Below, piece after piece: positions 10,927-33,436 of a stretch of DNA of 37,271 nt. The position numbers and the translations under genes were made by a program. The stretch's first letter is position 1; each line of letters starts with the position of its first letter. Below the pieces are notes generated by a model, which was not told the origin of the DNA, searched no databases, and was given only the letters and a program-made list of their open reading frames with translations. The DNA comes from Emticicia sp. (lineage in GTDB: Bacteria; Bacteroidota; Bacteroidia; Cytophagales; Spirosomataceae), in contig JALQYE010000020.1 of assembly GCA_023254245.1 (NCBI GenBank), positions 1 through 37,271 of the forward strand. Reading direction: 5' to 3'.

Positions 10927-11016
10927 GTAGTTAACAAAAAAAGACGAAGCACCTTTCGATGTTCCGTCCTCATACTCAGTTCATTAATTTACTCAAATAT
11001 TGTTTGAGACCTTAAA

Positions 11017-12411: not shown

Positions 12412-12422
12412 ACGTAAAATTT

Positions 12423-12455
12423 AAGGAAGGCTTCCCTCAAAGGGAAGCCTTCCTT
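12423..12455. terminator. strong hairpin AAGGAAGGCTTCCCT-CAA-AGGGAAGCCTTCCTT
   Basis: Perfect 15-bp stem, 3-nt loop, T-rich flank. Confidence 0.7.
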
Positions 12456-12484
12456 TTGTTAACCATCAAAAAATATTACCTTTG
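12456..12484 (+). promoter_or_regulatory. candidate promoter of pheT
   Basis: TTG-N18-TACCTTTG about 32 bp upstream of the pheT ATG. Confidence 0.5.
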
Positions 12485-15574: not shown

Positions 15575-15928
15575 ATGACCTATTCAAAAGGTTTGCATAT
15601 ATTGGCAGAGATTGACACCGCTGTAATCGAAGCTCTGACAGATTATGCAGCAGCCAAGCTACTATTGCAAAAAATCATCGAAAAGCATCGACTGACGATT
15701 GTAAGTGAGGTTTTTACAAATTTTGAAGGCGGAGGTTTTACGGGTGTGTATTGTCTGACAGAATCTCATATTTCGATTCATACTTGGCCAGCGTTCGAGC
15801 GAGTTACGTATGATGTATTTTTATCGAACTTTAGGAATAACAACGAAGCAATCGTGCGAGACATTTATAAAGAACTCGTTACATTTTTTCAGCCGACAGG
15901 ATTAAATCTAAACGAACTTTATAGATAA
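15575..15928 (+). CDS. speD: S-adenosylmethionine decarboxylase-like (SpeD family) proenzyme
   Basis: LTESHISIHTWP autoprocessing/active-site motif; about 117 aa prokaryotic SpeD size. Confidence 0.85.
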   Translation: MTYSKGLHILAEIDTAVIEALTDYAAAKLLLQKIIEKHRLTIVSEVFTNFEGGGFTGVYCLTESHISIHTWPAFERVTYDVFLSNFRNNNEAIVRDIYKELVTFFQPTGLNLNELYR

Positions 15929-16762
15929 ATGAAGCAACGTATATGCACTAAGTGTACAAATCAGATTTCGGTAAACGATAACGATACATTTGTTGCGTGT
16001 CCGAAATGCTTTAGCTATCAAGAAGTTACCGAAGATGGAATGAAGTTTCTTTCTTCCTTCAAAAACTCTAATCGTCCGAAAGAAGTTTGCTTTGAACTTG
16101 GGCAAAGTATTAGAGTCAACGGTAGGACCTATACTATTACAGGAATTACGCAGAGAAATGTAATTTGGGCGGTTCCACAGATGCTTCGCCCGTATGTGAT
16201 GCCGCAACAAAAATCTGATTTTCTTAAAGATTTTTCGTATTCGCCGTGGATGGTGGCTAATATTCAAACTAAACCGTTTGATACGGGTAGGGGACAAGCT
16301 CCTTCGTGGGATAATGTGATTTACGAAGGTAATGGTTTGGGTTATGTTTTATCGAATCATCAAGAGTTAGCTCAATACCCAAAAACTTGGCAACTAACTT
16401 ATTATAAGCCACTTGCCGACCTTGAGCCTGCCGAAGAACGCAAAAGAGCCATAGCGAAAACCCACGAAGAGTGGAAAAATGAGGTGTTGAATGATTTAAG
16501 AAAAGCACACCCAAAAATTGAAGAATCAATCTTGAAAATAGATATAAAATTGTGGGGGCACGCCATGATTCGCCCAATAATTGGTTTTATTCATGGGCAG
16601 GCTCGTCACGAAGCCCAGCAATCGCTCAATAATAAGATACATTTTGCCCATTCTGACCTATCGGGCGTTTCCATTTTTGAAGAGGCGTTTTTTTATGGGT
16701 ATGAGGCGGCAGGGAAAGTGATTTCAAATACTCACCACAAAGGCACAAATTATCACGGATAA
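15929..16762 (+). CDS. chimeric ORF: CxxC/CxxC zinc-ribbon plus DUF4178-like N-terminus (about 75 aa) fused to the C-terminal part of an FAD-dependent amine oxidase
   Basis: ATG directly abuts speD stop (TAA|ATG). N-term CTKC...CPKC...FELGQSIRVNGRTYTITGI. From about residue 75: RNVIWAVPQ...SPWMVANI...WDNVIYEGNGLGYVLSNHQ...WGHAMIRPIIGFIHG...IHFAHSDLSGVSIFEEAFFYGYEAAGKVI, with no N-terminal Rossmann GxGxxG. Confidence 0.7.
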   Translation: MKQRICTKCTNQISVNDNDTFVACPKCFSYQEVTEDGMKFLSSFKNSNRPKEVCFELGQSIRVNGRTYTITGITQRNVIWAVPQMLRPYVMPQQKSDFLKDFSYSPWMVANIQTKPFDTGRGQAPSWDNVIYEGNGLGYVLSNHQELAQYPKTWQLTYYKPLADLEPAEERKRAIAKTHEEWKNEVLNDLRKAHPKIEESILKIDIKLWGHAMIRPIIGFIHGQARHEAQQSLNNKIHFAHSDLSGVSIFEEAFFYGYEAAGKVISNTHHKGTNYHG

Positions 16763-16772
16763 AAATCTGAAA

Positions 16773-16803
16773 CCGTTGTCAGTGTCTCCACTGACAAGCA
16801 CGG
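16773..16803. repeat. palindromic short repeat CCGTTGTCAGTG-TCTC-CACTGACAAgcaCGG
   Basis: Perfect 9-bp stem TTGTCAGTG/CACTGACAA, 4-nt loop, no T-run. Confidence 0.65.
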
Positions 16804-16826: not shown

Positions 16827-17849
16827 ATGCAAACTCAACCCTGGATTCGCTCAGCTAAATACGATTTGAGTTTTATTATTGCTCCCTCGTTTTTGGCGGT
16901 TTTATTACTCTTTTTCTTTCCCGAAAGCTGGCTTTGGTCAAACGAAATGCCTAATTGGGCGTGGTTTGCTATGGTGTTATTGATTGATGTTTCGCATGTG
17001 TATAGTAGCCTTTATCGAACTTATTTTGATAAAATTTCGCTACAAAAACATAAAAAACTACTATTTTTTACGCCAATTTGGGTGGTTTTAGTGGCTGGTG
17101 GAATTCATTATTTTTCGGAAGGATTCTTTTGGCGGTTGGCTGCTTATTTGGCGGTTTTTCATTTTATTCGCCAACAATATGGTTTTCTGAGACTTTATAC
17201 CCGTGCTGAAGGAATCAAGCAACTTGATGTTTGGATGATTTATAGCGTTACGGTGTTTCCGATGCTCTATTGGCATTTGTCGGAGCCTCGCAATTTCATG
17301 TGGTTTACGGCTAAAGATTTTTTGTTTTACACCAATCAGGATTTGGCCGATTTACTTAAATATGCTTTTTGGGTTTGGGTAGCAATCTATTATATTTTGG
17401 TTGTTAAAGAGTATCTCAAAACTCGAAAAATCAATTTACCAAAAACATTACTGATTTTATCTACGATGCTCACTTGGTATCTCGGCATTGTTTATTTCAA
17501 TGGAGATATGGCGTTTACGATGCTCAATGTCGTGGCACACGGCGTGCCGTACATGGCCTTAGTTTATGCTGCTGAACAAAAGAAATCCTATAAGAAAACG
17601 GGTTTTTGGAAATTGCTGTTTTCAAATTTCGGAGTCTTGATTTTTATCGGAATTCTATTCGCATTCGCCTACATCGAAGAAGGTTTTTGGAATGGACTCG
17701 TTTGGCACGAATACGATGAGTTTTTTGCACTTTTTCCAACAATTACCCTCACTGATAATCTTTGGCTTTCTATTGTAATCACCTTATTATCAATGCCTCA
17801 GCTTACGTATTATATTCTTGATGGCTATATTTGGAAACGAGATTTTTAG
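16827..17849 (+). CDS. polytopic membrane protein of unknown function
   Basis: Long ORF with about 8-9 hydrophobic segments; conserved-looking His/Trp-rich loops. Confidence 0.7.
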   Translation: MQTQPWIRSAKYDLSFIIAPSFLAVLLLFFFPESWLWSNEMPNWAWFAMVLLIDVSHVYSSLYRTYFDKISLQKHKKLLFFTPIWVVLVAGGIHYFSEGFFWRLAAYLAVFHFIRQQYGFLRLYTRAEGIKQLDVWMIYSVTVFPMLYWHLSEPRNFMWFTAKDFLFYTNQDLADLLKYAFWVWVAIYYILVVKEYLKTRKINLPKTLLILSTMLTWYLGIVYFNGDMAFTMLNVVAHGVPYMALVYAAEQKKSYKKTGFWKLLFSNFGVLIFIGILFAFAYIEEGFWNGLVWHEYDEFFALFPTITLTDNLWLSIVITLLSMPQLTYYILDGYIWKRDF

Positions 17850-17857
17850 GTTGACAT

Positions 17858-19396
17858 TTATTGGGTAATTTCTTTTACTTTTTGTAACCATCCAGCATAC
17901 CCTGTTTTTACAGTTTGATTGGTTAAATTGGGCGAAATGCTGCTTATTTTCCTTGCATTTAGTTCGTTTAGATGCTCAATATCTCTGTAAACACCACTTT
18001 TTAAGCCAGACAGATATGCAGCTCCAAGTGCCGAAACGTCGGGGTTTTGTTGTTTTTTGAGCGGTACACCTAATAAATCGGCTAAGAAATGCAGCACAAA
18101 GCCATTGCGGGTAAGTCCACCATTCACCGAAATAGCTTTTAAATCAACGCCCATATCTTTGTTCATGGCCATGATTACATCTTTGATTTGATACGGAATA
18201 CTTTCGAGAGCGGCTCTTACAATATGATTTTTGCTGGTACCGAAAGTCATGCCTTCGATGGAAGCCCTACGATTCATTTGCCAATGTGGAGCCCCCAAAC
18301 CACTAAATGCTGGAATAAGATATACACCTGCGTTATCAGCAATTTTTAAGGCCATTTCTTCAGTTTCGGCTACATCTTTAAATAAATTTAGCTCATTTTT
18401 TATCCATTCTATGGTCGAACCACAGGCTACGATTGCTCCTTCGAGAGCAAAATCAATTCTATTTTCGGTACTCCAACAAATCGTAGAGAGCATGCCATGT
18501 TCTGAAATAATGGGCTTTGAACCCGTATTCATCATGATTGAGCTTCCAGTTCCGAGAGTTACTTTTGCTGTGCCTGTTTCAAAGCAACCTTCGCCAAAGG
18601 TGGCCGCATGAGAGTCGCCAATCATGGCAGTAATTGGCAATATACGATTTACGATTTGGGATTTACGATTTAGATTTATTATGTCCAATTCAAAATCGCC
18701 AAACTCCGAACTTGACGCATAAACTTCGGGTAAGTTCAATTTCTCTAAGCCCCAAAGTTTCAGAATATCTTTATCCCATTGGAGCGTATGAATATTGAAG
18801 AGTAATGTTCGATGGGCATTCGTATAGTCGGTTTTGAATGATTTTCCGTTGGTCATTTTGTATAACAACCAGCAATCAACCGTTCCGAAGTAAACTTCTC
18901 TGTTTTCAAGTTTTTGCTTTAAATTTGCATCATTTTCGAGTAACCAAAGCAATTTCGTAGCCGAAAAATAGGGGTCAATGATAAGCCCTGTTTTTTGACG
19001 AATTAAAGCCCCCCAGCCCCCAATGGGGGAGTTTTCATATTGGTCTGAAATGAGTTTTTGGCAGATTTCTATTGACCGCTTACATGCCCAAACTATTGCA
19101 GGAGCAAGCGTTTGTCCTGTACTATCCCAAAGTACAAACGTTTCACGTTGATTACTGATACCACAAGAGGCTATTTCGGAAGTATTAAAACCCTTGCTTT
19201 GAAAATCTTGTAAGCAAAACGAAACAGAATCTAAAACATTTTGATAAATTCCTTCGGGGTCTTGCTCAACAAAGCCATTATCAAAATAATTAGTATGTAA
19301 ATCGGCGTGACCTTTGGCAACGGCATTTCCTTCTTCATCAAAAATGATACTTTTGGTACCTGATGTGCCTTGGTCTATTGAGAGGATATATTTCAT
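17858..19396 (-). CDS. FGGY-family carbohydrate kinase (glycerol-kinase-like; possible ketopentose/apulose kinase)
   Basis: ILSIDQGTSGTKSIIFD, GISNQRETFVLWD, DYTNAHRTLLFNIHTLQWD, LGTGSSIMMNTG, GGLTRNGFVLHFLADLL. Confidence 0.9.
   Translation of the reverse strand: MKYILSIDQGTSGTKSIIFDEEGNAVAKGHADLHTNYFDNGFVEQDPEGIYQNVLDSVSFCLQDFQSKGFNTSEIASCGISNQRETFVLWDSTGQTLAPAIVWACKRSIEICQKLISDQYENSPIGGWGALIRQKTGLIIDPYFSATKLLWLLENDANLKQKLENREVYFGTVDCWLLYKMTNGKSFKTDYTNAHRTLLFNIHTLQWDKDILKLWGLEKLNLPEVYASSSEFGDFELDIINLNRKSQIVNRILPITAMIGDSHAATFGEGCFETGTAKVTLGTGSSIMMNTGSKPIISEHGMLSTICWSTENRIDFALEGAIVACGSTIEWIKNELNLFKDVAETEEMALKIADNAGVYLIPAFSGLGAPHWQMNRRASIEGMTFGTSKNHIVRAALESIPYQIKDVIMAMNKDMGVDLKAISVNGGLTRNGFVLHFLADLLGVPLKKQQNPDVSALGAAYLSGLKSGVYRDIEHLNELNARKISSISPNLTNQTVKTGYAGWLQKVKEITQ
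18642..18676. repeat. ATTTACGATTT-type iterated repeat within the kinase CDS
   Basis: TACGATTTACGATTTGGGATTTACGATTTAGATTT; same unit at 24487-24507 and 28430-28450. Confidence 0.7.
19004..19036. repeat. GC-rich short repeat (AAGCCCCCCAGCCCCCAATGGGGGAG) within the kinase CDS
   Basis: CCCCCA-AT-GGGGG partial palindrome with strong local composition shift, typical of dispersed repeats in Bacteroidota. Confidence 0.7.
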
Positions 19397-19463
19397 TTTT
19401 TACTTTAATTCTCCTTTAAGGGTTAGGGCGACCGTCGCTACGGGTCTTACTTTTTACTTTTTT
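19395..19463. repeat. kinase/permease junction: TTTTTACTTT units flanking GGGCGACCGTCGCTACGGGTC
   Basis: TTTTTACTTT repeated on both sides of a GCGAC-C-GTCGC palindrome. Confidence 0.5.
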
Positions 19464-20403
19464 TATCAATAATTACGGCCAGTAAAATGACTAAACCTTT
19501 CACCACTTGCTGCCAAAATGGCGAAACATTGAGTAGTACCAAACCGTTGTTAAGGACTCCAATAATAACCGCCCCAATGACTGTACCCGTGACTGTTCCT
19601 ACTCCGCCCGAAAGTGAAGTTCCGCCAATTACAACGGCAGCAATCGAATCTAACTCATAGCTCGTGCCAGCGTTTGGTTGGGCAGAATTAAGGCGTGAAG
19701 TTACCAAAACTCCACCAATGGCTGCCATCATACCAGCAATTCCATAAACGGCCAGTTTGATGTTATTGATATTAATTCCTGATAAAAACGCCGCTTTTTC
19801 GTTGCCACCGATGGCATATATGTAGCGTCCGAAGGCAGTTTTCTTAGTAATAAAAACTACTATCAAAACCATAATGGTAGAAATCCAAACGGGAACAGGG
19901 ATACCCAGTAACCAACCCGAACCGATAAATTCAAAACTTGAACCGAGGTTTGAAATCGGAATACCTTGTGTATAGAGCATGGTTGCTCCACGGGCAATTG
20001 TCAGCATGGCAAGCGTGGCTACGAATGGCGGTAATGAAAACTTTGTAATAACCCATCCATTAAAAATCCCCATCATTAGCCCGATAATTAAGGCCGATAA
20101 AACGCTACCTAAAACCGTAAAGCCAATGAATAAATCAAGTGATTGGATAGCAATGCCATTTTTGAGTAAACCAGCACATACGGCTGATGTAAACGCCAAA
20201 ACCGAACCCACCGAAAGGTCGATTCCTGCCATCAGAACAATCAAAGTCATGCCCACCGAAATACAAATATTGACTGAAATTTGTCGGAGAACATTCCACA
20301 AGTTATTGGTTGTTAGAAACTTATCTGATAAAACACTAATGACCAAACAAAGCAAGAAAAGAGCAATGAGTGATTGTGATTTTTTGAGTAATTCTTTGTT
20401 CAT
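19447..20403 (-). CDS. RbsC-like sugar ABC transporter permease
   Basis: GMTLIVLMAGIDLSVGSVLAF, AIGGNEKAAFLSGI, GGTSLSGGVGTVTGT. Confidence 0.93.
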   Translation of the reverse strand: MNKELLKKSQSLIALFLLCLVISVLSDKFLTTNNLWNVLRQISVNICISVGMTLIVLMAGIDLSVGSVLAFTSAVCAGLLKNGIAIQSLDLFIGFTVLGSVLSALIIGLMMGIFNGWVITKFSLPPFVATLAMLTIARGATMLYTQGIPISNLGSSFEFIGSGWLLGIPVPVWISTIMVLIVVFITKKTAFGRYIYAIGGNEKAAFLSGININNIKLAVYGIAGMMAAIGGVLVTSRLNSAQPNAGTSYELDSIAAVVIGGTSLSGGVGTVTGTVIGAVIIGVLNNGLVLLNVSPFWQQVVKGLVILLAVIIDKKSKK

Positions 20404-20412
20404 CTCTTTATT

Positions 20413-21897
20413 TTAGATTGCGTATTTCAATAGTATGTCCTCGTTGGCTTCAGAGGTAAGTAATGTCGCTTTCATTTGTCCTTCCGACATTACCAAGATT
20501 CTATCAGAAAGGGCCAGTATTTCGGGAATTTCCGACGAAACCACTACGATACTTTTACCTTCATGAGTTAGTTTTTTTATAAGCTCATAGATTTCGTTTT
20601 TGGCATTGATATCTATACCACGAGTGGGTTCATCGAGTAGCAAAACTTTTGGGTTGGTTGACAGCCATTTGGCTAATACCACTTTTTGTTGATTTCCACC
20701 GCTCAAATTCACGCAAAGTTGGCTTTCAGATGGCGTTTTAATACCCAATTGTTTAATGTAATCATGAGCAACTGATTTTTCTTGGCTCTCGTTGAGTAAT
20801 TGGGTTGTTTGGAGGGTTGTTAGGCTAATATTAGAGCTAATACTCATTCCCAAAATAAGGCCTTCAGTTTTGCGGTCTTCGGTAGCAAAGGCAATCCCGT
20901 ACTGAATAGCATCTTTTGGAGATTTTAAGCTAACTGTTTGATTATCAATAGTAATCTCTCCCGTCATGCTGGCAGGATTCATACCGAAGATAGTTTCTAA
21001 AAGTTCGGTTCGTCCTGCACCCATAAGCCCAAATATGCCGAGTATTTCGCCTTTTTTTACATTAAATGAAATATCCTTGAGTTGGTCTTTGTTGGTAATA
21101 TGTGGGTGTTTGAGGTTGAGATTTTTAACTTCCAATATATTTTCATTCGAAAAATTAGTGGCAGTTTTCTTTTCAATCTTCACTTCTCTGCCAACCATTT
21201 TACGGATTAAATCCTGCTCAGAAGCTTGTGCCATTTCACCTGCATCAATGCTATTGCCATCTCGCATCACGTTGTAGGTATCAGCAATTTGAAAGAGTTC
21301 GTCCATTTTGTGCGAAATGTACACAATGGTTTTGTCTTCGTTTTTTAGCTCATGAATAATTCGATGCAGGTTATCAATTTCTTTATCGCTGAGTGCCGAT
21401 GTGGGCTCATCCATTAAAATGATTTGAGCATCAGTCAATAAGGCTTTAGCAATTTCAATGAGTTGTTGTTCGCCAACTTTTAGGTTTTGTATCAGCGTCG
21501 TTGGCGAGCTATTGAGTTGTAGTTTCTTTAGTAATTCTTCGGCTTTTTGATTCATTTTTTTTGAATCGAGCAAGCCCCATTTGGTATAGATTTCTTGTCC
21601 GAGAAAAAGATTTTCGGTGATGCTTAACGTGGGAATCAAGTTTAATTCTTGATGAATAATGGCGATTCCTGCTTTTTGTGCATCTTTAATAGTTTTAAAT
21701 TTTACTGTACTCTCATTCAATCGGATTTCTCCTTCATACTCCGTATAAACACCCGTGAGAATCTTCAGTAGCGTAGATTTTCCAGCACCATTTTCGCCCA
21801 AAATTGCATTTACTTTCGATGGGTAAAAGCTTAGATTTACCGCATTGAGAGCCTTTACGCCTGGAAATGACTTCGATATATTGATTGCTTGTAGCAT
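20413..21897 (-). CDS. RbsA-like sugar ABC transporter ATP-binding protein (two ABC domains)
   Basis: GENGAGKSTLLKIL, VGEQQLIEIAKAL, second domain GLMGAGRTELLE, NLSGGNQQKVVLAKWL, LLDEPTRGID. Confidence 0.95.
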   Translation of the reverse strand: MLQAINISKSFPGVKALNAVNLSFYPSKVNAILGENGAGKSTLLKILTGVYTEYEGEIRLNESTVKFKTIKDAQKAGIAIIHQELNLIPTLSITENLFLGQEIYTKWGLLDSKKMNQKAEELLKKLQLNSSPTTLIQNLKVGEQQLIEIAKALLTDAQIILMDEPTSALSDKEIDNLHRIIHELKNEDKTIVYISHKMDELFQIADTYNVMRDGNSIDAGEMAQASEQDLIRKMVGREVKIEKKTATNFSNENILEVKNLNLKHPHITNKDQLKDISFNVKKGEILGIFGLMGAGRTELLETIFGMNPASMTGEITIDNQTVSLKSPKDAIQYGIAFATEDRKTEGLILGMSISSNISLTTLQTTQLLNESQEKSVAHDYIKQLGIKTPSESQLCVNLSGGNQQKVVLAKWLSTNPKVLLLDEPTRGIDINAKNEIYELIKKLTHEGKSIVVVSSEIPEILALSDRILVMSEGQMKATLLTSEANEDILLKYAI

Positions 21898-21910
21898 CTT
21901 TTTAGAAAAG

Positions 21911-22531
21911 CTATTGTTCGCTTTTTGAGATTTTAATAGGTAAAATATTGAGTATTTGATTTTTAGTTTTACCTTTTTTGAGTTTGATAGCTCCAGTTAC
22001 ACTAATAATATTTCCGTTGATGATATTATTTAGATTTTTAGGAATGGCTTTTTCTCGAATAACTGTATTTAATGCCTCAGAAACTTTATTAAAATCAGCG
22101 TTGGTTTTGAAGTCAGTTAATTTTACTAATCCCGAAGCATCTCTGATGGCATTACCGAAAATATATTTTGTGTCGATGATTAGGGTTGTACCGTTTTGGG
22201 TAATGACTTTTAATTCACCTTCGTTTTTCTCAATTATTTTACCAGTGGCATTTACCATAAAGTAGGCCGATTCGCCAATTCCTAAGCGATTACCGTAGGT
22301 TTTGAATGCTGAGTCGGCATTTACTTTAGTAAGTGCAAGTAACTGATTGATTTCTATTGCTTGAGTGCTTTTCAGAATACCGTTGTAATAAAGCGAGTCG
22401 GCAAAGGTATTGAAATCGAATTTGGCATTTTTTTGAGAGTTTCTTTTGCTCAATTTTTCAAAATAAACCGAATTATAGAGCAACACGCCCAACAAAATGG
22501 CCAGAATTGTATATAAATAGCTTTTCTTCAT
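21911..22531 (-). CDS. DUF2291 family periplasmic/lipoprotein-like protein
   Basis: N-terminal TM, FGNAIRDASGLVKLTDFKTNADFNKVSEALN; position between SBP and ABC ATPase. Confidence 0.75.
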   Translation of the reverse strand: MKKSYLYTILAILLGVLLYNSVYFEKLSKRNSQKNAKFDFNTFADSLYYNGILKSTQAIEINQLLALTKVNADSAFKTYGNRLGIGESAYFMVNATGKIIEKNEGELKVITQNGTTLIIDTKYIFGNAIRDASGLVKLTDFKTNADFNKVSEALNTVIREKAIPKNLNNIINGNIISVTGAIKLKKGKTKNQILNILPIKISKSEQ

Positions 22532-22532
22532 T

Positions 22533-23438
22533 TTAATATTCGTTAGCGTTTGTAGCAGTTACTAATTCGACTTCAACGGGTACTCTTTGTGGGAATGTTT
22601 TTCGACCTTTAAAGTATTCATCGGCATATTGAGCGGCAGTTTTGGCCATTATTTTTGGGTATTGCATTCCTGTGGCAATGATTTTCTTCTCCTTTATTTT
22701 CTCAACAACTTCCGACGCTCCATCAAATCCAAACACTTTCACCTTATCGGCTTTTCCTGCTGATTGAAGAGCCTGATAAGCTCCCATTGCCATGGCGTCG
22801 TTTCCACAAAATACCGCATCAATGTCGGGGTTAGCTTGCATAATAGTTTCTAAAACTTCCATGGCTTTGTTGCGGTCGAAATCGCCACTTTGTTGAGCCA
22901 ACATTTTTAAATCAGGAAATTTATCAACCACCGAATGAAACCCACCTGACCTCGCCCAAGTATTATTATCACCAACTAAACCGATAATTTCAACATATTT
23001 CCCTTTACCGTTGAGAGCTTTTACAAATTCAATTCCGATTTCTACACACCCCGAATAATTATCCGAAAGAATCTGACTCGTAGCGGCATCGTCGACATTT
23101 ACTTCTCGGTCCATGCAAAAAACTGGGATTCCTGCTGTTTTGGCCTTCAAGATATTAGCGATTGAGCCATCGGCATCAGTAGGATTGAAGAGAATAGCAT
23201 CAAACCCCGAAGAAATAAGGTTCTCAAAATTATCAGCTTCGGTAGCTGGATTATTTTGAGAATCAAAGATTTTTGCATCATATCCCAATTTTCGAGCATT
23301 TTCGGCGGCTGATTCTGCCAAAACTACAAACCACGGATTATTGAGCGTAGAGATTACAACCGCTACTTTGGGTTTCTCTTGGTCTTTTTTGGGCGAACAA
23401 GAAAGAAACAAAATGAAAATGATGGATATATATTTCAT
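22533..23438 (-). CDS. RbsB-like sugar-binding lipoprotein
   Basis: Lipobox FILFLSC, VAVVISTLNNPWFVVLAESAAENARKLGYD, FCGNDAMAMGAYQAL. Confidence 0.93.
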   Translation of the reverse strand: MKYISIIFILFLSCSPKKDQEKPKVAVVISTLNNPWFVVLAESAAENARKLGYDAKIFDSQNNPATEADNFENLISSGFDAILFNPTDADGSIANILKAKTAGIPVFCMDREVNVDDAATSQILSDNYSGCVEIGIEFVKALNGKGKYVEIIGLVGDNNTWARSGGFHSVVDKFPDLKMLAQQSGDFDRNKAMEVLETIMQANPDIDAVFCGNDAMAMGAYQALQSAGKADKVKVFGFDGASEVVEKIKEKKIIATGMQYPKIMAKTAAQYADEYFKGRKTFPQRVPVEVELVTATNANEY

Positions 23439-24484
23439 TAATCAAATATTTGATATGGTGCCGATGGAGATGTTAGAGACAAGGCATGCCTTGTCTCTAC
23501 TGTATCAATAATTTTTAATGCCATTTCGGTTAAACCCGATTTTGAAATGCCATAATGCTCGAAAATCTCATTTTGTGAACCCGAAACGGTATGGTCGTCG
23601 GGTAGGCCGACTATTTTGAATTTGTTTCGGAAACCATTTTGCATTAAAAATGAAGCAATGGCTTCTCCTAAGCCTCCGTAAACTGAATGTTCTTCAACAG
23701 TAATAATAGGTTTGCCATTTTCGGCCAAATTTCCAAGTAGCCCAATATCCAAAGGTTTGATGGTGTGCATACTAACGACCGTTGCTTCAATACCATTCTC
23801 TTTTGAAAGTTTCTCTGCAGCTTCAAAAGCAGGTAGAACACCCTCGCCAGTAGCGATGAATGTCAAATCTGAACCGTCTCTTATGATTCTTCCTTTTCCA
23901 AATTGAAAAGAATTAAATGCAGATTTTTTTAGCCCGTTTGAATCAGCGTTGCTTGCATCAGCGTTATCTGCGTGCAATCTTGAAGGCATAGATTTTTTTC
24001 CAAATCTAATGTAGATTGGTTCATTAAATGAAGTGGCAGCTTGAATAGCCTGTTCTGTTTCGTAATTGTCAGCAGGAGCTACGATAGTAATATTATTGAT
24101 GGCTCTCAAAACCGCAAAATCGTGTAAACTATGATGGGTAGAACCCAACGCACCATAGCTCACGCCGGCTGAAATACCAATGAGTTTTACGGGATTATCA
24201 GAATAACAGACATCATTTTTGATTTGCTCCAATGAGCGAGCCGTCAGAAAACAAGCTGGCGAAACAGCAAACGTTTTTTTCTCCATGCTTGCCAACCCTG
24301 CTGCCACACCTACTAAGTTTTGTTCGGCAATACCTACCTCGACGATTTGTTCAGGGAAACGCTGCCCAAAAGGTACGAGTTTTCCCGAACCTCTTGAGTC
24401 AGAAGTAACAACGTATAAGTTTTTGTCTGTTTCTGCTAAATTTTGCAGGGTTTCAGAGAATACTTCTAAATTTGGTTTACTCAT
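23438..24484 (-). CDS. split transketolase, C-terminal subunit
   Basis: FVVTSDSRGSG..., VEVGIAEQNLVGVAAGLA, SYGALGSTHHSLHDFAVLRAI, FIATGEGVLPAFEAA; stop overlaps next start (TAATG). Confidence 0.92.
   Translation of the reverse strand: MSKPNLEVFSETLQNLAETDKNLYVVTSDSRGSGKLVPFGQRFPEQIVEVGIAEQNLVGVAAGLASMEKKTFAVSPACFLTARSLEQIKNDVCYSDNPVKLIGISAGVSYGALGSTHHSLHDFAVLRAINNITIVAPADNYETEQAIQAATSFNEPIYIRFGKKSMPSRLHADNADASNADSNGLKKSAFNSFQFGKGRIIRDGSDLTFIATGEGVLPAFEAAEKLSKENGIEATVVSMHTIKPLDIGLLGNLAENGKPIITVEEHSVYGGLGEAIASFLMQNGFRNKFKIVGLPDDHTVSGSQNEIFEHYGISKSGLTEMALKIIDTVETRHALSLTSPSAPYQIFD
23474..23499. repeat. perfect 26-bp palindrome TAGAGACAAGGCATGCCTTGTCTCTA inside the 3' end of the transketolase C-subunit gene
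   Basis: Read directly from sequence; encodes VETRHALSL. Confidence 0.8.
23935..23985. repeat. iterated (A)TCAGCGTT/ATCTGCGT repeat inside the transketolase C-subunit CDS
   Basis: AATCAGCGTTgcttgcATCAGCGTTATCTGCGTGCAAT; encodes LHADNADASNADSN. Confidence 0.7.
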
Positions 24485-24486
24485 TA

Positions 24487-24507
24487 AATTTACGATTTAC
24501 GATTTAA
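24487..24507. repeat. AATTTACGATTTACGATTT repeat in the gap between transketolase subunit genes
   Basis: Same unit as 18642-18676. Confidence 0.6.
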
Positions 24508-24566
24508 AAATGACGATTCTTCGCAATCTTTTGACAAGATACGAGTCTAAAATTGCCTTTTTTCAA

Positions 24567-25373
24567 TCATTTTAATTCTTCTAAAGCTAACTCATATTGC
24601 TCTTGACTTGGTACGCCATGATGCCATTTAAGTACATTTTCCATATAGCTTACACCTTTTCCTTTTACGGTATGAGCAATAATAAAGGATGGCTTTCCTG
24701 GTTCTAAAGGCAAACTTCTCAAAGTTTCAGTTAATTCTTCGATATTATGACCATCTACCTGACGAACTGCCCAGCCAAATGCTTCGAGTTTCTTTTCGAT
24801 GGGTTCCAGTCCCATTACTTCGGCGTTTGGAGCGGTTATTTGTAATTTATTGTAATCAAGAATGGCACAAAGATTATCGAGTTTGTAATGTGCCGCAAAC
24901 ATCATTGCCTCCCAGTTTGAACCTTCGGCCATTTCGCCGTCGCCTAAAACCGTAAAGACTTTTACAGGAGAATTATCTTTTTTTGCTGCCAGTGCCATTC
25001 CCGAACACATCGAAAGACCATGACCTAATCCACCCGTATTTTGCTCCATCCCTTTGATGTATTTAGTCGGGTGCCCAATGTATGGCGAATTATATTGGCA
25101 GAGAGTCAGTAAATCTTCTTCTGGGAAAAAACCTTTGTCAGCCAGTACTACATAAAGTGCTTCTACACAATGTCCTTTACTCTGCACGTATCGGTCACGG
25201 AGATTTGAATGAAAGTTTTCGGGCGAGACATTTATTATCTCGTTGTATAAGACATTTAAAATATCAATAATCGACAAACTTCCACCCGTATGCCCAGCTT
25301 TGGCATTGAAGATATATTTGAGGATTTTCCTTCGGTATTCTTTCGACTTTTCTTTTAATTCTACAACTGTCAT
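24567..25373 (-). CDS. split transketolase, N-terminal (TPP-binding) subunit
   Basis: GHTGGSLSIIDIL, QNTGGLGHGLSMCSGMALA, VLGDGEMAEGSNWEAMMFAAHYKLDNLCAILDYNKLQ. Confidence 0.94.
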   Translation of the reverse strand: MTVVELKEKSKEYRRKILKYIFNAKAGHTGGSLSIIDILNVLYNEIINVSPENFHSNLRDRYVQSKGHCVEALYVVLADKGFFPEEDLLTLCQYNSPYIGHPTKYIKGMEQNTGGLGHGLSMCSGMALAAKKDNSPVKVFTVLGDGEMAEGSNWEAMMFAAHYKLDNLCAILDYNKLQITAPNAEVMGLEPIEKKLEAFGWAVRQVDGHNIEELTETLRSLPLEPGKPSFIIAHTVKGKGVSYMENVLKWHHGVPSQEQYELALEELK

Positions 25374-25435
25374 TTTTATTTTTCTTTGGTAAAAGCTACT
25401 TTTAAATGCCGTAAAATTCTTAAAACTGGGCCTAT

Positions 25436-26995
25436 TTACCTGTTTTTTCTGATTGTAACAATAACTCGCTGATACCTTGTGAGAGCAGGAGAACCATTGT
25501 CTGTTGCCTCAAAAACCAAATGGATTGTTTGTCCAGCTACAGCATCTTTTGGAATCTGAATCTCGGTTTGTAGGGCTTCTGGTTTTGTAATAGTTACTCT
25601 GTTCGGATAACTTCCCACTTCTAACTGCCACCATTTAGTAGAAATCTTATTTCCATCGACATCCGAAACAGACCCATTTAGTCGAATTTTATCTCCAGCC
25701 GCAGCCATAATGTTTAGTGGGCCTTCAACCTTTACGATTGGCTCGTGGTTCGCATCCGTAAATTTTGGTGTAACCGACCATTTTAAGCGTGCAGCAAAAT
25801 CAGCCTGAGCATTTGGAAAAAAGTTAGGAAAGGCATTGGTTCGTTGTTGAGCATTGACATTACTGAGTGTATTGGCCATTGCAGCGGCACTGGTATCGCT
25901 CACCGAAAATGAAATATTCAAACCATCTCGTCCGCCAGTGCTTCGACCTCCCCAACCGCCATAAGAGCCTGATTCATAAGCACGCAGACCATTCCCGAGC
26001 ATATTCATAAATGTATGATTATCGCCTTCGCCCAGCCACGAACCTTTTGTTTGCACGGGCATCCAGACGGCGTAGCCCATTTTCTTTAGTTCTTCGTTTG
26101 AGTATCCTGACAAACCAAAATAATCTAAAATATCGCCTTTAACCATTTGCTTACCATCGCCCCAAACCCTGTATAGTGCTCCTAATGCTCCACGGTCACT
26201 TACATTTTCTTTCATCCAAGAAGCAGTTAACAAGGGTGCATCTTCTTCTTTCGCTCGGAGTTGAGCCCCGTAACCATAATTAGGCCCACCACTAAACTGA
26301 CGGTATTCTATTTCTGGCCAGTTGGGTTTTATGTAGGTTGCATAGGTATCATCTTGGTCGCCAGAGGGCAATAAGACTACTTTTCGTGCTATTTTATTTT
26401 TAATTGCCTCCCATTCGGTGGTATATTCGTATTGATTCTGAATTGATTTCAAGGCACGAGCAATCGTGCTTTGTCCGCCCCAAGCTGTGATGAAAAGCTG
26501 TCCAGGCTTATTATCTAAAATCAAGGATTTAATGAGGTTAGAGCCAGGTGTATCTTTAGAAATATCGCCGTCGAACTCAATATTTCCGAATCTGATTTTT
26601 GATTTTAGCAAACTCGGAGCAGGATAATTGGGGTTATGAATTTTCAGATTTGGATATACTTTTTCGTAGGCATCAACAATATCATGAATAAATCTTTCGT
26701 CTTTAGCCCATCGCCACGAGTCACACGGGCACATGTTTAGTCCAAAACGAGCATATTCTCGGCCAGGAACAAACCATTTCGTGCCTTTACCATCGCCTTT
26801 CCAATGAAACCCACTACTGGCATAAATTAGCCCTTCGATGTTTAAGTCGGAACTATAGAGTAAAAAACGAATGAGTGAATTATTATCATCTAACTCTGGG
26901 TCGGCGGTGATAATGATGCGAGGCTTTTCTTGAGCATTCACAATAACAGAAATACTCATTAGCAGATACAGAAGCACCAGTAGTTTATTTTTCAT
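25436..26995 (-). CDS. secreted DUF1593 (Sde182-like, nucleoside-hydrolase-like) protein, paralog 1
   Basis: Signal peptide, ITADPELDDNNSLIRFLLYS, ITAWGGQSTIARALKSIQ, C-terminal Ig-like DVDGNKISTKWWQLEVGSYP. Confidence 0.85.
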   Translation of the reverse strand: MKNKLLVLLYLLMSISVIVNAQEKPRIIITADPELDDNNSLIRFLLYSSDLNIEGLIYASSGFHWKGDGKGTKWFVPGREYARFGLNMCPCDSWRWAKDERFIHDIVDAYEKVYPNLKIHNPNYPAPSLLKSKIRFGNIEFDGDISKDTPGSNLIKSLILDNKPGQLFITAWGGQSTIARALKSIQNQYEYTTEWEAIKNKIARKVVLLPSGDQDDTYATYIKPNWPEIEYRQFSGGPNYGYGAQLRAKEEDAPLLTASWMKENVSDRGALGALYRVWGDGKQMVKGDILDYFGLSGYSNEELKKMGYAVWMPVQTKGSWLGEGDNHTFMNMLGNGLRAYESGSYGGWGGRSTGGRDGLNISFSVSDTSAAAMANTLSNVNAQQRTNAFPNFFPNAQADFAARLKWSVTPKFTDANHEPIVKVEGPLNIMAAAGDKIRLNGSVSDVDGNKISTKWWQLEVGSYPNRVTITKPEALQTEIQIPKDAVAGQTIHLVFEATDNGSPALTRYQRVIVTIRKNR

Positions 26996-27026
26996 GATTT
27001 TATTGTTTTATAGCCGAATATCTCGA

Positions 27027-28421
27027 TTAGTGTTTATAAACTTCCCAACCCATGTAATTGCTAAGAGCTTCTTCTAAAATCGAAGCAGTTTTTGAGGCAT
27101 TCATCACCACGTGATGCTCGAAACCATTGCGACAAACGAATTTCATTAGCCCTTGCAAATCATTGATTTGTGCAACGGCACGATTACCAAATGTAGTAAG
27201 TGGGTCGTTGGTCAATTCTCCTTCGCCAATGTATGCCTTGATAATTCCTTTGGGGTCATCGGTGCTGATTCTTCCGTAAGTGAGTGGCATGGCTGGTGTG
27301 CGGCCATCTAAGGCACCGTAGGTATTTTCTACGCCTACGCTTGTTCCGAGAATCGGAGCGTTTGAAATTTGAATATCGGGTAAGAACGATTTTGCCCAGT
27401 TGCCACAGTGAAACAATACACATTTTTCGGGGTCGTCGGCGTAGTTATTGTTCCAATCAACCAAGGCACTTGGCGAACCACTTGCCAACTGCATAGCATA
27501 CATACTGAGTGTTCCTGTAACATCTACTTCGCAAGCCGATGGTAACATATTTTCTGACATGATACTCATGCTTGTGCATACATTGCAACCATAATTTTGC
27601 TGAAGCGAGGTCCAACATTGAATGGCCGTAGCATCCAGAGCATTTTCTTCCATTATCTCTTTTAAAACCACATCGAGTTTGGCAATTTGAAGCATCGCTT
27701 CATTTGGAGTTTTGCCTTTAGAAGCATACGCATTGATTGACTCGATGTGTTGTTTTACCTTGGCATCATCGGCCATGAGCTTGTTGGCTCTACCCAAAAT
27801 TTCCGATAAATCGAATGTTGTTACGGTAATGCCATTGCGTTGAAGGATTTTTTCTGAATATCGTACGGTGTTGAATGCCCCAGGTCTTGCCCCAATGGCT
27901 CCGATTCTTACATTTTTTAAGCCTTTTACCACTCGGCATACGGCCACAAAGTCCATTAGGTCTTTCTGGAATTCGGCAGAAGATGGCAAGCTAACGTGCT
28001 GACTTGTAAGCGAATATTTGATGCCATATTGATAAAGATTATTACAAACCGAAATCTTACCACACCACGAATCACGACGATTGATGACATTCATTTTGCT
28101 TAGGTCGTCGGGGTAGGCTTGAATCAAAACAGGTACATTTAACCCCGAAAGTTTTAGTGTATCTGCCACCCCTTTTTCATCGCCGAAGTTGGGTAAAAGT
28201 ACCAAAACTCCCGCAATATCTTCACGGTGTTTTTTGAATAATTCGGCACATTTCTGAGCATCTTTAAAGGTTTCAACACCGCCCAGTTTTGAGTCAGTTG
28301 TTTCTAAAAGAATCGGTTTTAGATTCAATTTTGCAAAAACATCGATAATTTCGGTTCTTGCTTTCTCTACTAAACTATCTGGAAAAAAATCTCTGTTTCC
28401 GATGATTACGCCTAAGGTCAT
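27027..28421 (-). CDS. L-fucose/L-arabinose isomerase family sugar isomerase
   Basis: RIGAIGARPGAFNTVRYSEKIL, ATAIQCWTSLQQNYG, MLPSACEVDVTGTLSMYAMQLASG. Confidence 0.85.
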   Translation of the reverse strand: MTLGVIIGNRDFFPDSLVEKARTEIIDVFAKLNLKPILLETTDSKLGGVETFKDAQKCAELFKKHREDIAGVLVLLPNFGDEKGVADTLKLSGLNVPVLIQAYPDDLSKMNVINRRDSWCGKISVCNNLYQYGIKYSLTSQHVSLPSSAEFQKDLMDFVAVCRVVKGLKNVRIGAIGARPGAFNTVRYSEKILQRNGITVTTFDLSEILGRANKLMADDAKVKQHIESINAYASKGKTPNEAMLQIAKLDVVLKEIMEENALDATAIQCWTSLQQNYGCNVCTSMSIMSENMLPSACEVDVTGTLSMYAMQLASGSPSALVDWNNNYADDPEKCVLFHCGNWAKSFLPDIQISNAPILGTSVGVENTYGALDGRTPAMPLTYGRISTDDPKGIIKAYIGEGELTNDPLTTFGNRAVAQINDLQGLMKFVCRNGFEHHVVMNASKTASILEEALSNYMGWEVYKH

Positions 28422-28450
28422 TTTATTTATGATTTACGATTTATGAGTTA
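28422..28450. repeat. TTTATGATTTACGATTTATGAG repeat upstream of the isomerase gene
   Basis: Same TTTACGATTT unit as 18642 and 24487. Confidence 0.5.
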
Positions 28451-28504
28451 TAATTTTTCGGTTGGGTGATAGATAAGCATCATTTCCCGATTGTCTTTCA
28501 TAAA

Positions 28505-29311
28505 TCAAGCTATTATTACTTCAATTTCGTTATCTCTAAATACTTCTTTGTGTTTTTCTTCGATGCCCGAATCAGTAATGATATAATCAATCAGACCTAA
28601 GGCACCGAGGCTCGCCAAAGCACTTTTTCCAATTTTTGTGCTATCGGCTACTAAGTATGTTACTTCAGCAGCATCAATCATGGCCTTTTTTACTACTAAA
28701 TCACTAATTGATGGGTAAGTAAGGCCTGATTTTAGAGAAATTCCCGCCGTAGCCAAAAATAGTTTTTGTACGTTTAAACCCTTGAAGAAATCCGCAGCTT
28801 TTTGTCCTGTTAATGAAAGCGTAGGAGGCTTAAACTCTCCGCCTGTCATAATTACTTCAATGTTTAAACCCGTTCCCAGCATCAAAGCTATGTTTAGAGC
28901 ATTGGTAATTACGGTGAGGTTTTTTATACCCGAAGCCTTTATTTTTTTTGCAATTTCGGTGGTGGTACTTCCCGAGTCGAGAATAATTGTATCGCCGTCT
29001 TCGATAAACTCCATGCACTTTTGGGCAATCATTTCCTTTTTATCGAGGTTGTCTTGATGCACCAGCGAAAAACTCTTTACTTGGGCTTCAACGTTTTTTA
29101 GGTAAGCCCCGCCATGCTCTTTAATAATCAAGTCTTCGGCTTCGAGTTTTTCTAAATCTTGCCGAATCGTTACTTCGGTTACTTTAAAGAGGCGAGCCAA
29201 ATCGGCTACTTTTGCTGAGCCATCTTCCTTCAATAACTCTATAATTCTTTCTCTTCTCTGGTTGGGTAGCATGGTATATTTTTCAATGTTTAATGATTTG
29301 GCTTCAATCAA
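28505..29311 (-). CDS. DeoR/GlpR family transcriptional regulator
   Basis: NQRRERIIELLKEDGSAKVADLARLFKVTEVTIRQDLEKLEAEDLIIKEHGGAYL; DSGSTTTEIAKKI sugar-phosphate binding motif. Confidence 0.93.
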   Translation of the reverse strand: MIEAKSLNIEKYTMLPNQRRERIIELLKEDGSAKVADLARLFKVTEVTIRQDLEKLEAEDLIIKEHGGAYLKNVEAQVKSFSLVHQDNLDKKEMIAQKCMEFIEDGDTIILDSGSTTTEIAKKIKASGIKNLTVITNALNIALMLGTGLNIEVIMTGGEFKPPTLSLTGQKAADFFKGLNVQKLFLATAGISLKSGLTYPSISDLVVKKAMIDAAEVTYLVADSTKIGKSALASLGALGLIDYIITDSGIEEKHKEVFRDNEIEVIIA

Positions 29312-29335
29312 AAATCATTTTCTTGAAGCAAAGCT

Positions 29336-29371
29336 AAAAGAAAATAAACGAAATAAAAAGAAAATAAACGA
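29336..29371. promoter_or_regulatory. candidate DeoR-type operator: two direct copies of AAAAGAAAATAAACGA at 20-bp pitch
   Basis: Exact 16-bp repeats at 29336-29351 and 29356-29371 in the divergent regulator/esterase intergenic region. Confidence 0.6.
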
Positions 29372-29461
29372 TAATATTTGTTTGTTAATTTTTTGCTTTT
29401 ACTTTCGTGTTCAAAAATAAGTTAAATTATTTCTTTGAATAACACATTCAATCCTAAAAAT

Positions 29462-30646
29462 ATGAAAAAAGGTAGTTTTCTTTTACAAAAAATCAAAAAT
29501 GGGCTTTTGGGGGCTGCCATTCTTGTGACACCCTACTTGGCAGAGGCTCAACGTCGCCCGAGCAATATCAGCTCGCCTGAAGTATTACCCGACAATTCGG
29601 TCATTTTCAGAATCAAAGCCCCAAATGCTACAAAAGCACAAGTGGTTGGCACTTGGTCGAGAGGTTTTAAACCCAACGAAATGGTGAAGAAAGATTCTGT
29701 TTTTGAAGTAAAAGTTGGACCAATTCAATCGGATATGTACGAATACGACATCATTGTTGACGGATTGCCGATGCTCGACCCGCTCAATAAAACTGTAACT
29801 CGTGATGGAGCTTGGATACAAAGCCGTTTGATGGTACCAGGTGGATTGGGCGATATTATTGATGTTAAACCTGTTCCGCATGGCGATTTAAAAGCAGTTT
29901 GGTATGATTCGCCGACGGTTGGTACCGAACAAAGACGTATGTTTATTTACACGCCACCAGGCTATGATAAGAGTAATAAAAAATATCCTGTGATGTATCT
30001 ACTACATGGTGGTGGCGGCGATGAAGAAGGGTGGGTGAGCCGTGGCCGAGCGAATTACATTTTAGATAATTTGATTGCTGCCAAAAAAACCGAACCTATG
30101 ATAGTTGTCATTACGAATGGCGATGTAAACAACATTGGTGCTCCACTTGACCGCCCCGCAAATTTGCCTAAAAAAGATAATACAGGTATCGGAGCAATGG
30201 CTGCGGGAGTATTCGAGAAAAGTTTGGTAAAAGATGTAATTCCGTACATAGAAAGTAATTATCGAGTAATAGCCGATGCTGACCACCGAGCCGTAACAGG
30301 TTTTTCGATGGGAGGTTTTCATACGCAAAATATCACTAATGCAAACCCTACGATGTTTAAATACATTGGTGTGATGAGTATGGGGCTTTGGTCAGCCGCA
30401 AGAAATGACCCCAACTTTGATAAAACTGCTTATATCGCACAGTTAAAAGCTCTTCAAAAAGCTAATCCAAAAGTCTATTGGATTGGTATGGGAACCGATG
30501 ATTTTCTCTATAAAAGTTGTGTTGAATTAAGAAAAGTTTACGACGAAATCGGGTTCAAATATATTTACCGTGAAAACATCGGAAACCACGATTGGAACTC
30601 TTGGAGATTGTATTTATCAGAGTTTACTCCACTGTTATTTAAGTAA
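29462..30646 (+). CDS. secreted esterase with N-terminal E-set/CBM48-like domain (esterase D / feruloyl-esterase-like)
   Basis: Signal peptide, VIFRIKAPNATKAQVVGTW, YPVMYLLHGGGGDEEGW, AVTGFSMGGFHTQ nucleophile elbow. Confidence 0.88.
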   Translation: MKKGSFLLQKIKNGLLGAAILVTPYLAEAQRRPSNISSPEVLPDNSVIFRIKAPNATKAQVVGTWSRGFKPNEMVKKDSVFEVKVGPIQSDMYEYDIIVDGLPMLDPLNKTVTRDGAWIQSRLMVPGGLGDIIDVKPVPHGDLKAVWYDSPTVGTEQRRMFIYTPPGYDKSNKKYPVMYLLHGGGGDEEGWVSRGRANYILDNLIAAKKTEPMIVVITNGDVNNIGAPLDRPANLPKKDNTGIGAMAAGVFEKSLVKDVIPYIESNYRVIADADHRAVTGFSMGGFHTQNITNANPTMFKYIGVMSMGLWSAARNDPNFDKTAYIAQLKALQKANPKVYWIGMGTDDFLYKSCVELRKVYDEIGFKYIYRENIGNHDWNSWRLYLSEFTPLLFK

Positions 30647-30693
30647 GGTTTGGAAGGCCATTTTGAAGCCAGATTCATAAAGATTACTTGAAA

Positions 30694-31980
30694 ATGAGAA
30701 TCAATATCAACGTTTTTTATCGTATTTTTTGCTTTTTATTGCTATCGGCCTCGTTGGGTTTTTCTCAAAAAAAAGAAAAACCCCGAGTGCTGATAAGTAC
30801 CGATATTGGTGGCACTGACCCCGATGATTTTCAATCAATGATTCATTTATTGATGTATTCTGATTTATTCAAAATCGAGGGTTTGATTTCTTCTCCCTTT
30901 GGAAATGGCAAGAAACAAGATATACTTGATATGATTGCTCTTTATGAAAAAGACCGCCCTCAGCTCTTGAACAACTACAAAGAATTGGCTACTCCACAAG
31001 CCTTGCGTGAAGTTTGCAAGCAAGGTTCAAAGCCTTCTGCACCTTATGCGGGCTACTCAAAACCAACTGAAGGCTCAGACTGGATAATAACGTGTGCAAA
31101 AAAGCAATCGAAAGAGCCTCTTTGGGTGTTGGTTTGGGGTGGAATAGAAGATTTGGCTCAAGCCTTGCATGATGCACCCGAAATTGAGCAAAAGATACGT
31201 GTATTTTGGATTGGTGGCCCTAATAAAAAATGGAGTATTAATGCCTATTCATACATCGTTGAGCATCACCCAAACCTTTGGATAATAGAATCGAATGCCA
31301 CTTACCGAGGCTGGTTTATGGAAGATGAAAATGCTCCCAAAAACATGCACGATGCGGCCTATTATGAGAATTTTATCAAAGGTCATGGGGCCATGGGTAC
31401 TGATTTTATCAAATATTATAACGGGCACATCAAAATGGGAGATACCCCTTCGTTGGCTTATCTGATGAATGGAAAACCCAACGACCCTACGCAAGAGAGT
31501 TGGGGCGGACAGTATAAACCTATTGCGTACAGTTCAAGGCATATTTTTGAGAGAAATACCAGTAAATTAGATAGTTTTCCAGCCTACGGGGTTGTTGAGT
31601 GGAGATTTAAAGGCCCAGCTATTTCGATTCCTGCCGATTCAGCGTGCTTTACACTTGAAATTCAAAAGCAAGAATGGGCTGGTTATTATTTGGGCAATGG
31701 CATTTACGGAGTACGCTATTCTTCCAAAAAGCCAGAAGTAAGTTCATACATTGTTCACAGTAAAATTAAGGAGTTAGATGGGCAAAAGGGCGAATATACC
31801 AGCACCGCACCGTGGCCAAGCAAACCGAACAAAGATGACTATCAACTCGGGAAAAACTGGTATGGTGATTTGCCTAACCCAGAACTTTTTTTAGCCGACC
31901 AACAAGGAGCAAGAACAATCTCAAAACACAGACAAGCCTACCTTGCTGACTGGGCAAAACGTTGGGCTTTATTGAAATAA
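30694..31980 (+). CDS. secreted DUF1593 (nucleoside-hydrolase-like) protein, paralog 2 (short form)
   Basis: Signal peptide, STDIGGTDPDDFQSMIHLLMYS, LVWGGIEDLAQALHDAPEIEQKIRVFWIGG. Confidence 0.85.
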   Translation: MRININVFYRIFCFLLLSASLGFSQKKEKPRVLISTDIGGTDPDDFQSMIHLLMYSDLFKIEGLISSPFGNGKKQDILDMIALYEKDRPQLLNNYKELATPQALREVCKQGSKPSAPYAGYSKPTEGSDWIITCAKKQSKEPLWVLVWGGIEDLAQALHDAPEIEQKIRVFWIGGPNKKWSINAYSYIVEHHPNLWIIESNATYRGWFMEDENAPKNMHDAAYYENFIKGHGAMGTDFIKYYNGHIKMGDTPSLAYLMNGKPNDPTQESWGGQYKPIAYSSRHIFERNTSKLDSFPAYGVVEWRFKGPAISIPADSACFTLEIQKQEWAGYYLGNGIYGVRYSSKKPEVSSYIVHSKIKELDGQKGEYTSTAPWPSKPNKDDYQLGKNWYGDLPNPELFLADQQGARTISKHRQAYLADWAKRWALLK

Positions 31981-32010
31981 GAATAGTCAAAAAAACGTAA
32001 AACTACAACC

Positions 32011-33429
32011 ATGAAAAATTGTATCATTTCGCTATGTTCACTGGCATTACTACTGGTCAGTTCATCTCATACAACCGCACAGGAAAGTAAACCCCGTATA
32101 GTTGTATTGACTGATATCGAAAACGAACCCGATGATGCCATGTCGATGGTGAGGTTTTTGACATATTCTAACCAATTTGATATTGAAGGCTTAATTGCCA
32201 CTACTTCTATTCATCAGAAAAAGAAAGTTGCTTCGTGGCGAATCCGTGAAATTGTTAGTGCGTACGGGCAAGTACAAGCTAATCTATCAAAACACGAAGC
32301 TGGGTATCCAAGCACCGAGTCGCTGCTTTCACGTATAAAAGATGGACGACCAGATTTTGGCATGCAAGCTGTGGGTAAAGGCATGGATTCTGATGGCTCG
32401 GAATTGCTCATTAAAGCCATTGACCGTGCCGATAATCGCCCCGTTTGGGTATTAGTTTGGGGTGGGCCTAATTGTTTAGCTCAAGCCCTTTGGAAAGTAA
32501 AAAATACTCGTACTGCTCAAGAAATCGATAAATTTGTGGCAAAAATTAGAGTTTATACCATTTCGGACCAAGATGATAGTGGCCCTTGGATTAGAAAGAA
32601 TTTTCCGAAGCTATTTTATATCGCAAGTCCAGGCGTGCACGATTTAGGTGGTTACCATTACGCCACTTGGAGCGGCATCAGTGGCGATAAATTTCATGGG
32701 CGTTTTGCGGGCGGCAACTTCACTATCGTGAGTAATCCGTGGCTCGATAGCCACATTCGTAACAAAGGGCCATTAGGAAAACAATATCCGTTTGCTCCTT
32801 TTTTAATGGAGGGCGACTCGCCAAGTTTTATGTATTTAATCAATAATGGGCTTGGTAGTGCGGAGCATCCAGATTGGGGAAGTTGGGGCGGACGTTATGA
32901 ATTTTATCAGCCACGAACCGAAAAATGGTTTTCAGAACCTGAAACTCGCCCACTTTGGACGAATGCCGATGATGAAGTTTTTGGTATGGATAGTAGCTGG
33001 CATACCTCAAACCATGCTACGATTTGGCGATGGAGAGAAGCCTATCAGAATGATTTTGAAGCACGTATGGACTGGAGCATAAAGCCTTATGCAGAAACTA
33101 ATCATCCGCCCGTAGTAAAACTTAACGGACAAGCAGTTATCAAAGCAAGAGTAGGCGATAAAGTAAATTTGAGTGCTACAGCCACCGACCCCGACGGAAA
33201 TCAACTAAGTTATCAATGGTTTTATTATGGTGAAGTTGGAACATTTACGATTACTACGGGAAGAACTGGGAATCCACTAAAAGTTGAAGAGGCCGATAAA
33301 GCAAATGCGTGGTTTGTGGTTCCTAAAAAAGAACGACTCGGAACGATGCACTTCATTGTGGCCGTCACGGATAATGGTAAACCCGCTCTCACGCGTTACC
33401 AGCGAGTGATTGTTGAGGTAGAGCCTTGA
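32011..33429 (+). CDS. secreted DUF1593 (Sde182-like, nucleoside-hydrolase-like) protein, paralog 3
   Basis: Signal peptide, [38 protein letters not shown]-terminal Ig-like [20 protein letters not shown]. Confidence 0.88.
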
Positions 33430-33436
33430 TGATACG

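Follow-up and report, generated by a model that had tools for sequence, protein, structure and literature searches.

We found that a 277-aa open reading frame in a draft genome of Emticicia sp. joins the start of one operon gene to the end of another, and we consider it highly likely to be what a single deletion left of a six-gene operon, the loss being genuine and recent and the product inactive. The window is the whole stretch of DNA analyzed, 37,271 nucleotides of contig JALQYE010000020.1 (assembly GCA_023254245.1). Within it, the open reading frame (positions 15929-16762) starts directly behind the stop codon of speD and consists of 77 codons from the start of a zinc-ribbon/DUF4178 gene followed in frame by 200 codons from the end of an FAD amine-oxidase-type gene (Table 1). 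Such a fusion had been proposed in an earlier note, based on two CxxC pairs and a DUF4178-like start in the first part, an amine-oxidase C-terminus lacking its Rossmann half in the second and a switch near nt 16150. Comparison with intact relatives supported each of these points: the CxxC pairs are present, both parts align closely with the proteins named, and the switch lies within about 10 nt of the proposed position. The note had left the choice between a new protein, a decaying locus and an assembly collapse. Our results favor a genuine loss of the operon, while no decay is visible in the pieces that remain.

Table 1. Positions and supporting matches of the operon remnants in the window.
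Feature	Position	Strand	Evidence
speD-type S-adenosylmethionine decarboxylase, 117 aa, frame intact, operon gene 1	15575..15928	+	PF02675, E = 1.1e-19, 71.2 bits (cut-off 25)
First 77 codons of DUF4178 gene (zinc ribbon and first ~20 DUF4178 residues)	15929..16159	+	Residues 1-77: 82-92% identity to N-termini of intact 424-436-aa proteins (E. aquatilis, Emticicia EMPMRC01); weak zinc-ribbon matches only
Deletion junction	16159..16160	.	Left and right blastn pieces meet at 16160 in comparisons with each of the three intact relatives; 1-bp overlap
C-terminal 200 codons and stop of FAD amine-oxidase-type gene, without N-terminal FAD Rossmann half	16160..16762	+	Residues 78-277: 80-85% identity to residues ~350-553 of intact 551-553-aa oxidases (E. 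aquatilis, Emticicia EMPMRC01)
340-aa membrane protein, last operon gene, intact	16827..17849	+	89%, 89% and 76% identity to orthologues in the three intact Emticicia operons

Domain content of the two parts

Profile searches of the separate halves recovered the oxidase assignment weakly and the DUF4178 assignment not at all. The PigB-type oxidoreductase profile of NCBIfam matched the oxidase half with E = 4.7e-6 (profile positions 454-655 of 659), and Pfam returned neither an oxidase match on the fusion (PF01593 or NAD_binding_8) nor an informative match for either half. No match to DUF4178 (PF13785, ~136 positions) was found in the fusion or anywhere else in the genome. An intact DUF4178 orthologue matches this profile over residues 57-186 (30.7 bits, cut-off 25), and the domain falls below detection in the window because the deletion took almost all of it, leaving ~20 residues. 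In the intact oxidase, the FAD-binding Rossmann motif sits at residues 73-139 (PF13450, 42.4 bits). The oxidase-derived part of the fusion starts at about residue 350, so that this motif of flavin amine oxidases is absent and homology to their C-terminal half is retained. A search of the PDB with the fusion gave nothing significant; with the intact oxidase it gave mainly FAD-domain matches to amine oxidases, the best being 2b9w. AlphaFold models built from shallow alignments were of low confidence and do not discriminate for the fusion (pLDDT 45), since the intact oxidase used as control scored equally low (43.5).

The intact operon in related genomes

Alignment of the locus to close relatives revealed the intact genes in three Emticicia genomes: Emticicia aquatilis (L001), Emticicia EMPMRC01 (L002) and a third genome, G003 (L013). 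All three carry the order speD, DUF4178, DUF350, membrane speE, FAD oxidase and 340-aa membrane protein, the zinc-ribbon/DUF4178 protein being 424-436 aa long, the membrane spermidine-synthase-like SpeE 505 aa and the FAD oxidase 551-554 aa. The E. aquatilis operon (NZ_BMKK01000008.1) and its relatives share with the window the gene order and the upstream pheT and 133-aa gene, the latter read as methylmalonyl-CoA-epimerase-like, and the remnants are 80-92% identical to them. Unlike the E. aquatilis operon, the window does not present the full six-gene order: DUF350 and speE are absent altogether, and the DUF4178 and oxidase genes are cut short, with most of the former and ~350 codons of the latter missing. 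The suggestion of the earlier note that one deletion, with its ends inside the DUF4178 and oxidase genes, had removed a speE-like gene is thus supported by three intact relatives, which add DUF350 to the genes lost.

Operons of similar content have been described in association with PspA (PMC11237479, mSystems 2024). These combine a 7TM-spermidine synthase-like protein, DUF350/YjfL and DUF4178, with related variants that include AdoMet decarboxylase and polyamine oxidase, and the authors suggested a link between membrane structure and either polyamine level or the aminopropylation of other substrates. The intact Emticicia operon resembles them in bringing together a membrane-fused spermidine-synthase-like protein, DUF350 and DUF4178. 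In contrast to these PspA-associated systems, the window operon is broken, and no PspA or CesT/Tir gene was recognized by eye among the open reading frames around the Emticicia operon.

The operon is not confined to this genus. A full-length relative of speE (E<1e-100) was found in 35 of 201 genomes of the family, and the order DUF4178, DUF350, speE, oxidase was present in all 30 family loci fetched. The oxidase also has relatives in one Flavobacteriales and one Bacteriovoracaceae assembly, in the latter next to a speE-like gene and the membrane protein. The fused architecture, on the other hand, was found in one genome only, with no second case among the genomes searched, including 12 of Emticicia. 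Among these 12, three are intact, the window genome is collapsed, another (G010) is collapsed differently and seven gave no trace of the operon in four protein searches. The junction 22-mer was absent from viral contigs, a result of little weight since the host is a bacterium.

The gene nspC belongs to the carboxyspermidine pathway, another route to spermidine. Each of the 12 Emticicia genomes carries it (in G002 as two parts on separate contigs), which is consistent with spermidine being made in Emticicia by a route other than speE.

The deletion junction

The missing block is single and uninterrupted, with a length of about 4033 bp when E. aquatilis is taken as the reference and about 4091 bp when EMPMRC01 is, and the breakpoint is identical against all three intact relatives. 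The reading frame is kept across the join, for which the chance expectation is one in three. A scan of E. aquatilis detected no direct repeat linking the two breakpoint ends. We therefore consider recombination through direct repeats an unlikely cause, and an assembler would likewise have had no repeat to jump across.

Nonetheless, it has to be weighed whether the organism carries the intact operon and 4 kb dropped out during assembly or through a chimeric amplification product, an explanation that we regard as unlikely. The genome is a fragmented, incomplete draft, the join is known from the assembled contig alone, and a chimeric molecule would also produce a nearly blunt join. Against this, the junction is not bridged by a run of N, the breakpoints offer no repeat, and the lost DNA does not turn up on another contig: when the 4-kb missing segment was searched against the entire assembly, it matched nothing except the 30 bases to the left of the junction, and no match to speE was obtained, although in a draft of 531 contigs that is 81.6% complete such absence falls short of proof. 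Neither would an artefact cause the unusual changes at conserved sites of the neighboring speD that are described below. The strongest reason to read the deletion as biological comes from a sister species, G010, which lost the same operon separately.

A second loss in a sister species

In G010 (99% complete; L055/L056), codons 1 to about 54 of speD run in frame into the oxidase at codon ~40, with about 3.5 kb lost. A TAA interrupts speD at codon 29, and the oxidase remnant is cut again, similarity stopping ~340 nt further on. Like the window locus, the remnant adjoins pheT and the 133-aa gene. The two loci share their chromosomal position, and in each a large deletion within this operon is closed by an in-frame join. 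They differ in their breakpoints, which in G010 run from speD to the oxidase N-terminus, in the stop codon within speD and in the 340-aa membrane gene, which was not found in G010. Because the breakpoints differ, the two losses are independent, and we infer that the window deletion took place in the organism rather than in the assembly. The window case is an ordinary operon-loss remnant, one of at least two independent losses in the genus.

Taken together, the events may be reconstructed as follows. An ancestral, vertically inherited operon would have comprised speD, DUF4178, DUF350, membrane speE, the FAD oxidase and the membrane protein. A single deletion of ~4.0-4.1 kb, from DUF4178 codon 77/78 to about oxidase codon 350, would then have left a nearly blunt join that happens to stay in frame, giving the 277-aa chimera. 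The operon would be dispensable in Emticicia and lost more than once, the window genome being a recent case. Here, the deletion of an operon can be followed cleanly down to the breakpoint, and a sister species provides an independent second case. This suggests that some lineages can do without this polyamine/membrane operon, which is widespread but poorly understood. Emticicia species with intact and with broken copies offer a natural contrast from which its role could be worked out.

Divergence, selection and the fate of the product

The dS of the remnants relative to E. aquatilis (0.55-0.72) falls among the values of the flanking genes (0.49-0.82), indicating that the locus was inherited together with its surroundings and is not foreign; horizontal transfer of the operon is therefore not supported. 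Both remnant halves have a dN/dS of 0.06-0.14 against the nearest relative. The operon remnants accumulated more amino-acid changes on the window branch than on that of E. aquatilis, and the excess over the prediction from control genes was not significant (p=0.21). It was strong only when all controls were pooled, a test that is unreliable because several G009 control genes have a much longer branch, and we dropped a lineage-specific excess of substitutions as proof of decay. Decay of the remaining pieces is not demonstrated, and the simplest reading is probably that the deletion is recent.

The 277-aa product would probably still be translated behind speD, but without a working domain. Catalysis by the fusion appears very unlikely, because the FAD Rossmann domain and nearly all of DUF4178 beyond the zinc ribbon are lost, and judging from its sequence the product is most likely a non-functional, presumably inert remnant. 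Several observations run counter to this: dN/dS is low, the invariant columns of the oxidase are intact, with zero departures in the oxidase half of the fusion, and the reading frame survives, as would be expected of a hidden function too. A new small zinc-ribbon protein could instead have arisen by a random in-frame deletion, the zinc ribbon and a fragment of the former oxidase substrate domain being expressed and kept for a new role. This would fit the open frame, the start directly behind the speD stop and the low dN/dS of both halves, but is highly improbable given that the fusion occurs in one genome only, that the FAD-binding half and nearly all of DUF4178 are gone and that the low dN/dS averages a branch most of which may be older than the deletion. 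As an operon remnant, the 277-aa product does not warrant annotation as a novel domain architecture.

Neighboring genes

The window SpeD scores below the equivalog cut-off of NCBIfam TIGR03330 (61.9 against 75.65). In an alignment with 23 operon relatives it differs at 3 positions that are invariant among them, two of the changes being non-conservative (G44S and E73A). These departures are only suggestive; another, more divergent SpeD departs at 4 invariant columns. At residues ~80-85, all 24 aligned operon-type SpeD proteins carry DVFLSN or DIFLSN, where class 1 AdoMet decarboxylases presumably have DVFTCG with the catalytic cysteine. The operon-type SpeD may thus differ in mechanism or substrate.

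Between the stop codon of the fusion and the 340-aa membrane gene, a gap that is longer in the window than in E. aquatilis, lies a palindrome with a perfect 9-bp stem, TTGTCAGTG-TCTC-CACTGACAA (16776-16797), the sole copy in the genome. Downstream, a ~15.6-kb block of sugar-type genes (17850-33430) separates the operon from a GMC-type oxidoreductase gene. From the reading of its open reading frames, the block contains an FGGY-like kinase, an ABC transporter, transketolase halves, an isomerase-like protein and a regulator. In EMPMRC01 the operon adjoins the GMC-type oxidoreductase gene without this block between them, and in G003 much of the block is on a separate contig. Upstream, E. aquatilis has ~6.8 kb of extra DNA at the intergenic site between clpB and a WG-repeat gene (10934-10941), where no window gene is cut. 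Finally, a terminator-like hairpin upstream of pheT (12422-12457) has many similar copies in other Emticicia genomes.
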